The notes under the pieces were generated by a model. That model did not search any database. It worked only from the letters and a program-made list of their open reading frames with translations, and was not told where the DNA came from. Shown here piece after piece: positions 4,646 to 62,274 of a stretch of 64,000 nt of DNA (the stretch's first letter is position 1; each line of letters opens with the position of its first letter). The position numbers and the translations under genes are program-made. Source of the stretch: Flavobacterium sp. 90 (GTDB taxonomy: Bacteria; Bacteroidota; Bacteroidia; Flavobacteriales; Flavobacteriaceae); contig NZ_SMGE01000001.1 in assembly GCF_004339525.1 (NCBI RefSeq), forward strand, positions 1,984,001 through 2,048,000. Direction: 5' to 3'.

Positions 4646-4704
4646 CGCAAAGACGCGAAGTCGCAAAGTTTTAATTCAATTCTTTGCGACTTCGCGTCTT
4701 TGCG
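4646..4704. repeat. Palindromic intergenic element with 23-bp perfect arms
   Basis: A 23-bp arm at 4646-4668 (begins CGCAAAGACGCGAAG) is repeated inverted at 4682-4704 with a 13-bp loop. It is followed at 4723-4760 by a near-tandem run of CACAATT/CACAACT words. The element separates the S66 gene from the YraN gene and could act as a terminator or a REP-like repeat. Confidence 0.75.
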
Positions 4705-18372: not shown

Positions 18373-18387
18373 ATTACTAAGTTTTTT

Positions 18388-18461
18388 TGCCACGAATTTC
18401 ACGGATTCCACGAATTAAGGCTGCAGATTAAAATTTGTGCCAATTCGTGAAATTCGTGGCA
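18388..18461. repeat. Palindromic element, family C (copy 1)
   Basis: Begins TGCCACGAATTTCAC and ends with the inverted GTGAAATTCGTGGCA, with a 44-bp centre. The same ends occur at 22036-22117, 22783-22842 and 62152-62231. It lies between the GH97 gene and the T9SS amylase gene. The remaining 146 bp up to the next start codon show nothing I recognise. Confidence 0.85.
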
Positions 18462-18607
18462 GAATCTTATGCTCATTTCTGAGCGAAAATTAAAATTTTA
18501 CTACTTGAAAACTATTAACCACAAAATGTTTGTCGAATTTAAAAACAATGCGAGTGAGAATGAATTTTAGTTAGAAATGCTGACAAGCATGCAAAAAACA
18601 AAAAATC

Positions 18608-22035: not shown

Positions 22036-22117
22036 GCCACGAATTTCACAAATTAACACGAATTATTTTTTTCATATTACACGAATTAAATTCGTGCTAA
22101 TTTGTGAAATTCGTGGC
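22036..22117. repeat. Palindromic element, family C (copy 2)
   Basis: Ends GCCACGAATTTCACAAATT and AATTTGTGAAATTCGTGGC form a 19-bp inverted pair, with a second inner ACACGAATT pair. It fills the gap between two convergent genes. Confidence 0.85.
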
Positions 22118-22679: not shown

Positions 22680-22782
22680 GTAGAAGTTTCTTTAAAATTT
22701 TGATTCAAAGAAAACTTTCTCGTCTTAAGATTTCTCTTAAGTAAAAGATAAATAAAACTTAAGATTTTAGTATTATTTTTTT

Positions 22783-22842
22783 GCCACGAATTTCACGAAT
22801 TCACACGAAAATTATTAGTGTAAATTCGTGAAATTCGTGGCA
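22783..22842. repeat. Palindromic element, family C (copy 3)
   Basis: TGCCACGAATTTCACGAATT and its inverted partner lie 60 bp apart end to end around a short AT-rich loop, just downstream of the mfd stop codon at 22853. Confidence 0.85.
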
Positions 22843-22852
22843 ACTTTTTCTT

Positions 22853-26937: not shown

Positions 26938-27336
26938 GCCCACGGATTTTGCGGATTAAACGGATTAACGCAGATTATTTTTTCAAACTCTACTTGGGGA
27001 ATTTTACCGCAAAGTGCGCAAAGGTTTTTTGTTTTGGATTATGGTTAGTAATCGCAAAGTTCGCAAAGCTTTGTGTTGATTTAGCTTTGTATGCTTTGTG
27101 GTAAAAAAATCTGTCTGAACATAAAATAAATCTTTACATAAAAATTTAACCGCAAAGCACGCAAAGTTTTTTTTATATGTTATGGCTTTATACAAACGCA
27201 AAGTTCGCAAAGCTTTATCTGGATATAGCTTTGCGAACTTTGCGTTTAATATGCGTAATCCTAAGCAAAAAAACTTTGCGCACTTTGCGGTAAAAAACTA
27301 TCCGCATTAATCCGTTTAATCCGCTAAATCTGTGGC
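26938..27336. repeat. Three-level nested palindrome, families E and D
   Basis: Outer arms: 26951-26968 pairs perfectly with 27307-27324 (GCGGATTAAACGGATTAA and its complement), extending imperfectly to 26938 and 27336. Middle arms: 27002-27023 pairs perfectly over 22 bp with 27274-27295 (begins TTTTACCGCAAAGTGCGC). Inner hairpin: 27194-27214 pairs perfectly over 21 bp with 27227-27247. Further partial CGCAAAG arms lie at 27050-27110 and 27149-27170. Together they fill most of the 647-bp gap between the mfd operon and the threonine dehydrogenase gene. Reading frames through it are repeat by-products. Confidence 0.85.
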
Positions 27337-42138: not shown

Positions 42139-42627
42139 ATGGAAGGTAAAAAAGTAATCATTTTAGGATCATCCAGAAAAAATGGAAACACAACCCGAAT
42201 TGTGGATGAAATTTCTAAAGATACCGGAATCGATGTAATTGATTTAAGTGATTATAGTATCTCTTATTATGATTACGAAAGCAAAAACAAAGAGGATGAT
42301 TTTCTTCCTTTAATAAGAAGAATACTCGAACAATACGACACTTTAATTTTTGCAACGCCAATATATTGGTATAATATGAGCGGAATAATGAAGGTTTTCT
42401 TTGATCGTTTTTCGGATTTAATCCGAATTGAAAAAGAAACCGGACGAAAACTTAGAGGAAAGAAAATTGGCGTGATATCAAATTCACACGACAATGAAAT
42501 TGAAGAAAGTTTTTACATTCCTTTCAAAAAATCAGCCGATTATTTAGGCATGGAATATTTAGGACACGCGCATTTTAATGCCAACATCCTAAACCACACA
42601 ACAAAAATAGAATTGACATTTATATAA
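42139..42627 (+). CDS. NADPH-dependent FMN reductase / flavodoxin-fold protein within the SUF operon
   Basis: A 162-residue flavodoxin-like fold protein. The FMN phosphate loop is GSSRKNGNTTRI (about 10-21) and the second motif is FATPIYWYNMSGIMKVFFDRFSDL (about 71-94). Such proteins pass electrons from NAD(P)H to quinones, azo compounds or iron. It lies 7 bp behind sufB and 13 bp ahead of sufC, so it is part of the operon. A supporting role in iron or sulfur reduction during cluster assembly is a reasonable guess but unproven. The flavin fold is certain; the physiological partner is not. Confidence 0.82.
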   Translation: MEGKKVIILGSSRKNGNTTRIVDEISKDTGIDVIDLSDYSISYYDYESKNKEDDFLPLIRRILEQYDTLIFATPIYWYNMSGIMKVFFDRFSDLIRIEKETGRKLRGKKIGVISNSHDNEIEESFYIPFKKSADYLGMEYLGHAHFNANILNHTTKIELTFI

Positions 42628-42640
42628 AATAAAAAAAACA

Positions 42641-43387
42641 ATGTTATCAATAAAAAACCTTCACGCCTCAATTGGTGATAAAGAAATCCTTAAAGGAATT
42701 AATATAGAAGTTAAAGCTGGCGAAGTACACGCTATCATGGGACCAAACGGTTCTGGAAAAAGTACACTTTCGGCTGTAATTGCCGGAAACGAAAACTACG
42801 AAGTTACTGACGGACAAGTTTTCCTTGATGGAGAAGATCTTGCTGATCTTGCTCCAGAAGAAAGAGCACACAAAGGAGTTTTCCTTTCTTTTCAATATCC
42901 TGTAGAAATTCCCGGAGTAAGTGTTACAAACTTCATGAAAACTGCAATCAACGAAACTCGTAAAGCAAACGGTCAGGAAGAAATGCCTGCAAACGAAATG
43001 CTAAAAGTAATTCGCGAGAAATCTGAATTGTTAGAAATCGATCGTAAATTTTTGTCTCGTTCTTTAAACGAAGGTTTTTCCGGAGGAGAGAAAAAAAGAA
43101 ACGAAATTTTCCAAATGGCAATGTTAGAGCCAAAATTAGCAATCCTTGACGAAACCGATTCTGGTCTTGATATCGACGCATTAAGAATTGTTGCTAATGG
43201 AGTTAACAAATTAAAAAGCGAGAAAAACGCAATTATCGTTATCACACACTACCAACGTTTATTAGATTATATCGTTCCGGATTTCGTTCACGTTCTTTAC
43301 AACGGAAGAATCGTAAAATCAGGCGGAAAAGAGCTAGCATATGAGCTAGAGGAAAAGGGCTACGATTGGATCAAGGCAGAGAATTAA
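42641..43387 (+). CDS. sufC: Fe-S cluster assembly ATPase SufC
   Basis: A 248-residue ABC-type ATPase of the SufBC2D scaffold. Walker A is GPNGSGKST (about 35-43), the signature is FSGGEKKRNE, Walker B is LAILDETDSGLD and the switch His is in ITHYQRLL. The stop codon TAA (43385-43387) is the first half of a TAAACA word that is repeated at 43901-43906, just before sufD, where a cargo element has been inserted. Without that insertion the sufC-sufD gap would be 8 nt. Confidence 0.97.
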   Translation: MLSIKNLHASIGDKEILKGINIEVKAGEVHAIMGPNGSGKSTLSAVIAGNENYEVTDGQVFLDGEDLADLAPEERAHKGVFLSFQYPVEIPGVSVTNFMKTAINETRKANGQEEMPANEMLKVIREKSELLEIDRKFLSRSLNEGFSGGEKKRNEIFQMAMLEPKLAILDETDSGLDIDALRIVANGVNKLKSEKNAIIVITHYQRLLDYIVPDFVHVLYNGRIVKSGGKELAYELEEKGYDWIKAEN

Positions 43388-43425
43388 ACAGTCTAAAGTC
43401 GCAAGTCTTAAAGTCAAAAGAAAAT

Positions 43426-43794
43426 ATGAGTAAATTTAATTCTTTCGAAGAAATTAATTCTTGGAAAAAATCAAGAATCTTCAACAAAAGAATTTATCTG
43501 ATCACTGAAAACTCTAATTTCAAAAAAGATTTTGATTTTGTTAGACAAATTAGACGAGCATCAATCTCTATATCATCAAATATAGCTGAAGGTTTTGAGA
43601 GAAATACAGACAAAGAGTTTATTTACTTTTTATATGTAGCAAAAGCATCAGCAGGAGAAGTTCGATCTCAATTATATTTAGCATTTGATCTGGAATACAT
43701 TATTAAAGAAGAATTTGAAATACTCTTAGAATCGGTAACAGAAATATCGAAATTATTAAGTGGTTTCATAAAATATTTGAGCCCAAAGTCATAA
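43426..43794 (+). CDS. Four helix bundle protein (23S rRNA intervening-sequence family, TIGR02436-like)
   Basis: A 122-residue protein from ATG 43426, starting 5 bp inside the left inverted repeat. The frame is open upstream, but the extra codons lie in the repeat and in sufC. Family signature: FEEINSWKKSRIFNKRIYLIT, then FDFVRQIRRASISISSNIAEGFER, then FIYFLYVAKASAGEVRSQL, forming four amphipathic helices. The family is known from intervening sequences in bacterial 23S rRNA and from scattered copies in Bacteroidota; its function is unknown, with RNA binding proposed. The last codons and the stop (AAAGTCATAA) are supplied by the first copy of the AAAGTC tandem repeat, which ties gene and repeat together. 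Confidence 0.85.
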   Translation: MSKFNSFEEINSWKKSRIFNKRIYLITENSNFKKDFDFVRQIRRASISISSNIAEGFERNTDKEFIYFLYVAKASAGEVRSQLYLAFDLEYIIKEEFEILLESVTEISKLLSGFIKYLSPKS

Positions 43795-43814
43795 AGTCGA
43801 AAGTCATAAAGTCG
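43785..43814 (+). repeat. Perfect 15-bp tandem duplication at the 3' end of the four-helix-bundle gene
   Basis: AAAGTCATAAAGTCG is present twice without mismatch. The first copy includes the final two codons and stop codon of the gene. Confidence 0.85.
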
Positions 43815-43911
43815 CAAACTTTATGCTTAAAATTTTTAACCTTTTGGCAAAACAGTCGACAATCCTGAGTCTTTTGACTTTCGACTTTCGACTTTAAGAC
43901 TAAACAAGAAA

Positions 43912-45228
43912 ATGGATTTAAAAGAAAAATTAGTATCGTCTTTTATGGCTTTTGAAGAGCGTGTCGATGTACATTCAGATTTACATGATATTCGCACCAA
44001 AGCACTAAAAAACTTTGAAAATAAAGGTTTCCCAACCAAAAAAGAAGAAGCTTGGAAATATACATCGCTAAACGCCATCTTAAAAAATGACTTTACGGTT
44101 TTTCCTAAGCAAGAAAATGCAATCGAATTTAATCAGGTAAAAAAATACTTTTTACATGAAATCGACACTTATAAACTAGTATTTATCGATGGTGTTTTCA
44201 GTTCGCATTTGTCTTCTACAACGCATGACGGAATCGATGTTTGTTTGATGTCATCGGCATTGACCAAACCAAAATATAAAATGATTATTGATACGTACTT
44301 CAATCAAATCGCAAGTAAAGATGACAGTTTGACTTCATTGAATACTGCTTTTGCAAGTGAAGGAGCTTTTATCAATATTCCGAAGAAAAAAGTTGCTGAT
44401 AAACCTATTGAGATTATGTATTTCTCAACAGGAAACGAAGCTGCTTTAATGGTTCAGCCAAGAAATTTGATTATTGTAGGCGAAAACTCACATGTTCAAA
44501 TTATCGAGCGTCACCAAAGTTTGAATGAAAATCCTGTTTTGACAAATTCTGTTACGGAGATTTTTGCTCAAAAACGTGCGATCGTTGATTATTACAAAAT
44601 TCAAAACGACAATAGTGAAGCGAATTTAGTTGATAATACTTATGTATCGCAACAACAAGAAAGCCACGCTTATGTGCATACTTTCTCATTTGGAGGAAAC
44701 CTAACACGTAACAACTTAAACTTTTATCACTTTGGTGAAAGATTGACAAGTACACTTAACGGAATTTCCATCTTAAATGACAAACAACACGTTGATCATT
44801 ATACTTTGGTAAACCACGCAACACCAAATTGCGAGAGTTTCCAGGATTATAAAGGAATTTTCTCTGATCGCTCAACTGGAGTTTTCAACGGAAAAGTTTT
44901 GGTAGAAAAAGAAGCTCAAAAAACAAATGCTTTCCAAAAAAGCAACAATATTTTATTGAGTGATAAAGCAACTATCAACGCAAAACCACAATTAGAGATT
45001 TTTGCAGATGACGTAAAATGTTCTCACGGTTGTACAGTTGGACAACTTGACGAAACAGCAATGTTCTACATGCAATCACGTGGAATCCCGAAAAAAGAAG
45101 CAAAAGCTTTATTGATGTATGCATTCTCAAATGCTGTAATCGAAAGCATTAAAATACCGGAATTAAAACAAAGAATTACTAAAATCATTGCCATGAAATT
45201 AGGCGTGAATTTAGGATTTGATTTGTAA
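43912..45228 (+). CDS. sufD: Fe-S cluster assembly protein SufD
   Basis: A 438-residue subunit of SufBC2D. Similar in fold to SufB, it lacks the longer N-terminus and carries KKEEAWKYTSLN near the start, LVDNTYVSQQQESHAYVHTFSFGGNLTRNNLNF, FKDYKGIF-like QDYKGIFSDRSTGVFNGKV, and ADDVKCSHGCTVGQLDETAMFYMQSRGIPK, with the conserved His and Cys of the SufB-SufD cluster site. It starts 11 bp after the right end of the inserted unit, so it is presumably still expressed with sufC. A strong terminator follows. Confidence 0.97.
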   Translation: MDLKEKLVSSFMAFEERVDVHSDLHDIRTKALKNFENKGFPTKKEEAWKYTSLNAILKNDFTVFPKQENAIEFNQVKKYFLHEIDTYKLVFIDGVFSSHLSSTTHDGIDVCLMSSALTKPKYKMIIDTYFNQIASKDDSLTSLNTAFASEGAFINIPKKKVADKPIEIMYFSTGNEAALMVQPRNLIIVGENSHVQIIERHQSLNENPVLTNSVTEIFAQKRAIVDYYKIQNDNSEANLVDNTYVSQQQESHAYVHTFSFGGNLTRNNLNFYHFGERLTSTLNGISILNDKQHVDHYTLVNHATPNCESFQDYKGIFSDRSTGVFNGKVLVEKEAQKTNAFQKSNNILLSDKATINAKPQLEIFADDVKCSHGCTVGQLDETAMFYMQSRGIPKKEAKALLMYAFSNAVIESIKIPELKQRITKIIAMKLGVNLGFDL

Positions 45229-52482: not shown

Positions 52483-52624
52483 TTACCGCAAAAAATACAA
52501 AAGTCTTTTCTTAGATTACGCTTAATAAACACAAAGTTCGCAAAGCTATATGTAGATTTAGCTTTGCGAACTTTGTGTTTTATAGATACTTTAATATAAA
52601 AATATTAGCGCTCTTTGCGGTAAT
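52483..52624. repeat. Palindromic element, family D (copy 2)
   Basis: Outer words TTACCGC and GCGGTAA enclose a perfect 20-bp hairpin at 52527-52546 and 52561-52580 (AAACACAAAGTTCGCAAAGC and complement). It lies between the convergent DUF3078 and hflX genes and may act as a terminator for both. Confidence 0.8.
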
Positions 52625-62092: not shown

Positions 62093-62151
62093 TTTGTCTT
62101 TTATTTGTTTTGCCACAGATTATTTTGATTAAAATGATTTAAAAAAATGTT

Positions 62152-62231
62152 GCCACGAATTTCACTAATTTCCACGAATTATTACAAGTTTTAAACGCAT
62201 CGATTTGTGCTAATTTGTGAAATTCGTGGCA
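62152..62231. repeat. Palindromic element, family C (copy 4)
   Basis: TGCCACGAATTTCACTAATT and AATTTGTGAAATTCGTGGCA frame a 40-bp centre with a second, inner pair. It lies between two minus-strand genes. Confidence 0.85.
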
Positions 62232-62274
62232 AAAAAATCTTTTTTAATCTGTGCAATCTGTGGCAATAAGTCAT

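Follow-up and report, generated by a model that had tools for sequence, protein, structure and literature searches.

The gap between sufC and sufD of Flavobacterium sp. 90 contains a gene for a four-helix-bundle (FHB) protein held between inverted arrays of a short repeated word, a degenerate heptamer specific to the lineage, and we regard this FHB hairpin element as probably a relative, in generalised form and without a transposase, of the 23S rRNA intervening sequence (IVS), one that we infer to be mobile and whose ring protein would recognise its own arms. Elements of this kind appear to form a class that crosses phyla and that occupies, in sense orientation, the gaps between co-transcribed genes; a 23S rRNA intervening sequence that codes for S23p would seem to be such an element located in an rRNA gene. 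The element was recognised in a 64,000-nucleotide stretch of DNA (the window), and lies at about C1:2027400 of the genome, between two protein genes and not inside an rRNA gene. Its parts are listed below in window coordinates. The arm score compares the flank upstream of an FHB gene with the reverse complement of the flank downstream, with a threshold of 30, and we take the neighbouring genes to be sufC and sufD from the initial annotation and from reading of their translations.

42641..43387, plus strand: presumed sufC, the upstream neighbour and the search query for junctions
43385..43390, no strand: left TAAACA, made of the sufC stop and the first base of the element
43390..43420, plus strand: left arm, four to five degenerate AAAGTC+1 units with first bases AGTC (arm score 42, locus L002)
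43426..43794, plus strand: FHB-A gene, four-helix-bundle protein of 122 aa, PF05635 and TIGR02436 (S23 / 23S_rRNA_IVP)
~43779..43816, plus strand: third AAAGTC array, in the sense of the left arm, overlapping the 3′ end of the FHB-A gene
~43870..43901, minus strand: right arm, inverted AAAGTC units with last bases GACT
43901..43906, no strand: right TAAACA, the second copy of a claimed direct repeat
43912..45228, plus strand: presumed sufD, the downstream neighbour

The initial annotation described a unit with inverted AAAGTC ends and one gene, in the sense of the operon and without a transposase. The ends and gene are real, and both the orientation and the lack of a transposase are borne out, with no transposase ORF inside the element in the ORF list. 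An inverted-repeat search pairs 43390-43407 with 43876-43893 (89%) and 43404-43420 with 43885-43901 (94%), and in the predicted RNA fold the two arms pair around the whole ORF (z -3.98, 0/100 shuffles as good), the terminal inverted repeats closing a stem around the S23p ORF. The third array (~43779-43816) had been overlooked and contains the FHB-A stop codon; an alternative pairing of 43787-43805 with 43883-43901 (95%) gives a short 3′ hairpin on the right arm. The right arm (43870-43901) is thus common to two alternative stems, one enclosing the gene and the other a short 3′ hairpin with 43779-43816, and this pair of stems could act as a switch. Elsewhere in the operon, an extra ORF at window positions 42139-42627, between sufB and sufC, presumably encodes an NADPH-dependent FMN reductase, as judged by eye. 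In relatives, the sufB|sufC gap may span roughly 500 nt or more or just some 30 nt, or it may contain word hairpins or other FHB genes, and because of these varied contents the gaps of the suf operon look like an insertion hot spot.

Assignment of the gene product, FHB-A, to the 23S rRNA insertion protein family is confirmed by profile searches, with matches above cut-off to PF05635 (E 2.8e-34; 117.9 bits vs 33.8) and to TIGR02436 (1.6e-35; 121.6 bits vs 24). The predicted monomer agrees with the four-helix bundle of the solved S23 fold. Structures 2gsc and 2rld each contain five chains of a family protein, the Xanthomonas S23p is called a homopentamer in the accessible portion of PMC4990558, and by analogy with its solved relative the FHB protein is probably a pentameric ring. 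The folds of FHB-A and Avd are alike at a sequence identity of 12-13%, although the fold likeness alone is moderate evidence because the first clearly unrelated helical bundle already scores 13.6. A likeness of PF05635 to Avd is already in print (PMC10053308, in the part available), and the available parts of published papers call PF05635 a widespread and functionally uncharacterised family.

A sufC match was obtained in 117 of the 121 genomes searched, and 80 junctions were examined. An AAAGTC-armed FHB element occupies 20 of these (with a broken FHB gene in a few) and a GTTTCA-armed one 11; a shorter insert is present in 32, in many cases a hairpin of one of several words that lacks a gene, and the remaining 17 are empty. 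Eleven of the 80 junctions were fetched for FHB-A or a relative, and without these the counts are 11, 10, 31 and 17, respectively. The proteins of the GTTTCA-armed elements (FHB-B) are 41-48% identical to FHB-A. The view that this is a discrete unit holds, with many relatives lacking it at this site. The particular empty site that had been predicted, TAA-ACAAGAAA-ATG, is absent among the 80 junctions, the 17 empty ones having 0-11 nt from stop to start, as in TAA-G-ATG. The state labels are scattered on the sufC tree, which is a weak one, with 19 changes for the A state and 11 for B; well-supported branches force at least seven and at least five of these.

The TAAACA pair had been taken for a 6-bp target duplication. 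Both copies exist, each taking in one terminal base of the element (the A of AGTC and the T of GACT), but they are not conserved: among the 20 sufC|sufD elements with AAAGTC-type arms, the pair occurs only in this genome and its sister G075. Absence of the pair around other copies had been named beforehand as an outcome that would speak against duplication, and with 2/20 it does so; the pair most likely arose by chance in a leader rich in A. An informal look by eye around about a dozen gene-less copies likewise revealed no direct repeats.

Related elements are found at three further junctions, which from reading of the flanking proteins we take to be sufA|sufB, sufB|sufC, and nuoF|nuoG. Members of the FHB-A lineage there carry one-letter variants of the word, with AAAGTC/AATGTC in the nuoF|nuoG copies (~80-85% identical to FHB-A) and AAAGTT/AATGTT in two sufA|sufB copies (~64%). 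Six copies at sufB|sufC are 70-84% identical to FHB-B and have GTTTAAAG-type words, and in four of these six genomes the sufC|sufD junction has a GTTTAAAG-type hairpin without a gene.

The genome has seven PF05635 matches by profile search, of which L003 is interrupted by an in-frame stop. All seven lie between inverted arrays of seven different words, as read by eye. The expectation that AAAGTC-type ends would surround the other FHB genes of this genome thus failed (0/6), inverted arrays of other words being present instead. The copy ends share little sequence with one another (highest word cosine 0.34 among the seven), and six of the seven have an arm score of at least 30, with L003 at 26. 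L003 (C1:283630-283947) has an in-frame TGA, still lies between inverted ATTAAAC-type arrays, and is probably a decaying FHB copy.

Matching arms are a general property of these genes. Among distinct loci in Flavobacterium and other genomes of the order, 119/142 have an arm score of at least 30, compared to 5.0% of 3000 pairs combining flanks of different loci (cross pairs) and 1.1% of shuffled flanks. When proteins were collapsed at 75% identity, with representatives drawn from 165 loci (the 142 and 23 more), the threshold is reached by 46/60 representatives and by 2.4% of 3540 cross pairs. Flanks matching at this score are also seen at 5/42 ordinary genes of the window. Named GTDB records supplied 77 usable loci of the best 80, and 45 of the 77 reach 30, compared to 2.2% of cross pairs; these best loci divide into 35/63 for Bacteroidota and 10/14 for loci labelled as other phyla, with the proviso that many GTDB loci are metagenome bins and that L255 is probably a misbinned Flavobacterium. 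By score, 14/60 representatives and 28/63 Bacteroidota loci (of the best 80 GTDB loci) are without clear arms. For elements scoring at least 30, arm identity at lag 7 is 0.52 vs 0.34 in shuffled arms, and 0.55 vs 0.30 in the GTDB set (best 80 loci); 7 is the best lag in 79/119 loci and 29/45 GTDB loci (best 80), there is a minor period of 8, and arms have a median length of 34 nt. For pairs from different loci, the correlation between protein similarity and word similarity is weak (r 0.10, with 100/5000 permutations as high).

Gene-less AAAGTC hairpins or single arrays are present at many places, the hairpins typically with the form AGTC...GACT. Fold z values are -5.8 and -6.6 for two of these and -3.0 for a third hairpin, of another word. 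A pattern search located three-AAAGTC arrays in 71/121 Flavobacterium genomes, and the pattern read backwards as a control also matched many genomes, because AAAGTC backwards is CTGAAA, which is contained in the GTTTCAG word. AAAGTC arrays are present in each of the 21 genomes with FHB-A at 79% identity or above (median 17), compared to 50/100 of the rest (median 0.5; p 3.5e-11); when four matches per FHB-A genome are subtracted to allow for the arms of the element itself, the median is 13 and p 1.5e-8, and in the genome studied here the element itself yields three matches. Similarly, GTTTCA arrays are present in 12/12 genomes with FHB-B at sufC|sufD (median 89) vs 44/109 others (median 0), these 12 having been chosen by position, with arms in 11 and none in G021. 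Choosing by identity of at least 79% alone gives 17 FHB-B genomes, 12 with GTTTCA arrays (p 0.00015). Of the five GTTTCA-free genomes, three have FHB-B-like copies that were read, at sufB|sufC, and these carry GTTTAAAG; the word therefore follows lineage and locus and not protein identity alone. Within a close clade of 27 genomes the association gives p 8.5e-5 for the A-word (cross 0.12) and 0.022 for the B-word (cross 0.24), or 0.0004 and 0.027 with four matches off. Genus-wide the cross-controls are positive (AAAGTC vs FHB-B, p 0.00045; GTTTCA vs FHB-A, p 0.0017), so that shared ancestry or general repeat load contributes, and all of these word-protein p-values ignore kinship among the genomes. 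With these caveats, array number follows the matching protein for the two words.

Nine of ten fetched AAAGTC-pattern sites of G075 were compared with the present genome, G108 and G114, and 24/27 orthologous regions were found. AAAGTC-type hairpins are kept in all four genomes at L334, L340 and L337, and at L333 in both of the two other genomes in which the region was found. At L341 there is an AAAGTC hairpin in three genomes and an AAATTCC hairpin in the fourth, L338 has AAAGTC in G075 and a TTTTAGA word in the three others, and L339 has other words in G108. The region of L332 was found in G114 only, and there it lacks the array; in G075 this is a one-armed AAAGTC array at ~600-640, apparently close to where a coding sequence begins. 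L336 was rejected as a hairpin site, being a chance match in coding sequence. At L335, L343 and L350, inverted AAAGTC arms surround an apparent intrinsic terminator hairpin and not an FHB gene.

FHB genes have been at their locus for as long as sufC, with little sign of recent movement here: median synonymous divergence is 0.52 for nine FHB-A copies and 0.44 for sufC of the same strains, and the sufC|sufD copy is thus no recent arrival. Median dN/dS values of 0.037 and 0.080 show that FHB genes are under purifying selection. Both neighbours lie on the FHB strand at 151/162 loci with readable neighbours and in 40/46 representatives; the figure for ordinary window genes is 20/40. This sense bias points to an RNA-level role, or at the minimum to a reliance on transcription by the host. 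For the two families searched, the results speak against a partner transposase or reverse transcriptase, PF00078 (reverse transcriptase) having no match in 8/18 chosen FHB-bearing genomes and PF01797 (Y1 transposase) none in 4/18, and neither matching in G148 or G167, with 9 FHB matches in the former and 17, partly fragments, in the latter. The two PF00078 matches of the present genome, at C1:3935472 and C1:5888610, lie away from the element. The suggestion that the unit relies on activity in trans is thus unsupported for these two enzymes.

We propose that the host operon transcript would carry the element, whose arms are predicted by folding to pair and to hold the FHB ORF in the loop. In rRNA, published accounts have RNase III cutting the corresponding stem, and the intervening sequence is excised without ligation. 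The FHB protein, probably as a pentameric ring, would bind its own heptamer array in cis and gene-less hairpins elsewhere, and this binding, along with host replication or repair, may let hairpins of the same word spread and replace one another at tolerant intergenic slots. An extension that we put forward only tentatively is that each ring reads about five copies of its own word, ring and word making up a distinct transposase-free hairpin class across bacteria and perhaps archaea, with rRNA intervening sequences and many unexplained heptamer arrays being members or gene-less offspring. The equation of one ring with about five heptamers derives from just two numbers, the 34-nt median arm and the five subunits in relatives.

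Chief among the rival readings is a host regulator that acts on transcripts bearing the word, in which the FHB protein would bind same-word mRNA hairpins in its own operon and in a small trans regulon, setting the relative expression or stability of neighbours post-transcriptionally and without selfish mobility. Such a regulator would fit the sense orientation in operons (151/162), the low dN/dS medians (0.037 and 0.080), the gene-less AAAGTC sites L334, L340 and L337 kept in four genomes, the tracking of word count with protein presence, and the arms flanking apparent terminators at L335, L343 and L350. We nonetheless consider it rather unlikely, because close relatives can have different words at one site (L341, L338 and L339, as well as sufC|sufD), and a conserved regulon would hardly tolerate a sufC|sufD slot that is empty in 17/80 junctions and has other words elsewhere.

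The two further alternatives are both improbable. The lack of a conserved direct repeat (2/20) argues against a composite DNA transposon, moved in trans by a transposase or reverse transcriptase with TAAACA as its target duplication, as do the FHB genomes missing PF00078 (8/18) or PF01797 (4/18), with G148 and G167 missing both, and the dissimilar ends of the own-genome copies (cosine at most 0.34), unlike ends read by one enzyme. It thus seems very unlikely, although the AGTC...GACT ends, inverted arms, MITE-like gene-less copies and polymorphic site are all in keeping with it, and the fold is that of Avd, the reverse-transcriptase partner in diversity-generating retroelements (PMC10053308, in the part available). 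Least probable is that ordinary intergenic heptamer repeats arose by slippage and the FHB gene merely sits among them, its arms matching through simple repeats common in AT-rich genomes. FHB-free word hairpins are indeed common in the genus (about seven in the window), matching flanks also occur at 5/42 ordinary window genes, and the backward AAAGTC control matched many genomes too; but the 119/142 FHB genes with matching arms exceed the 5% seen across different FHB genes and the 5/42 of ordinary genes, the excess persists in the GTDB set (best 80 loci), and slippage would presumably give direct arrays and not inverted ones.

Returning to the favoured relationship with rRNA intervening sequences, the inverted ends, S23p ORF and heptameric repeats of the Coxiella IVS, and the PF05635-Avd likeness, are already known. 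In the available part of PMC4990558, the Coxiella 23S IVS has inverted ends, a 28-bp stem, an S23p ORF and, in its upstream region, heptameric repeats that vary in number, with an RNase III site at the first heptameric repeat; its authors recount hypotheses of mobility, and describe the ORF as under reductive evolution, unlike the FHB protein with its purifying selection. Insertions in the 16S and 23S genes of CPR bacteria have likewise been reported to contain IVP ORFs (PMC11270868, in the part available). The rRNA intervening sequences and the FHB element share a protein family and have one small sense ORF between terminal inverted repeats, but the FHB element is located between protein genes of an operon, its word differs from copy to copy, and gene-less hairpins of the same word occur elsewhere. 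In the REP/REPIN and RAYT systems, a Y1 transposase gene is flanked by an inverted short sequence that is also found gene-less at many intergenic sites. The FHB element is similar in having its gene between inverted copies of a short sequence that recur intergenically without the gene, and differs in having a PF05635 gene in place of a Y1 transposase and heptamer arrays of differing words in place of one palindrome. Unlike the Avd of diversity-generating retroelements, to which identity is 12-13%, it has no reverse transcriptase in the cassette.

Heptamer arrays of TAACTGA have been described in Beggiatoaceae, Cyanobacteria, and Bacteroidetes, with a patchy distribution and a suspected horizontal spread lacking an evident mechanism (PMC4679880, in the part available). 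These resemble FHB words in being intergenic heptamer arrays of patchy distribution, although they are described there as direct repeats, unlike the inverted FHB arms, and the text of PMC4679880 contains no mention of '23S rRNA', 'four helix bundle' or 'intervening'. In the open-access literature, outside which the early IVS papers probably fall, we found no account of FHB genes flanked by cognate heptamer words, of elements of this kind within operons of protein genes, of the differing-word rule, of the gene-less partners, or of the swapping of elements at operon slots. If FHB genes generally sit in heptamer hairpins of their own word, the function of S23/IVP proteins becomes directly testable through cognate binding, the origin of rRNA intervening sequences would be explained in general terms, and the heptamer arrays noted here and there in bacterial genomes would gain a candidate protein. 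A natural set of rings that each read a different heptamer would, if real, be of interest both as a recognition code and as a cousin of the Avd of retroelements.

Gene-less word hairpins are located in the window at 4646-4704, 18385-18464, 22036-22117, 22781-22843, 27145-27295, 52527-52580, and 62110-62266, and the words of these approximately seven hairpins are CCACGAATT/TCACGAATT and CGCAAAG. One genome, G016, is heavily loaded, its 3.7 Mb containing 274 matches to the AAAGTC pattern and 220 to the GTTTCA pattern, overlapping ones included.
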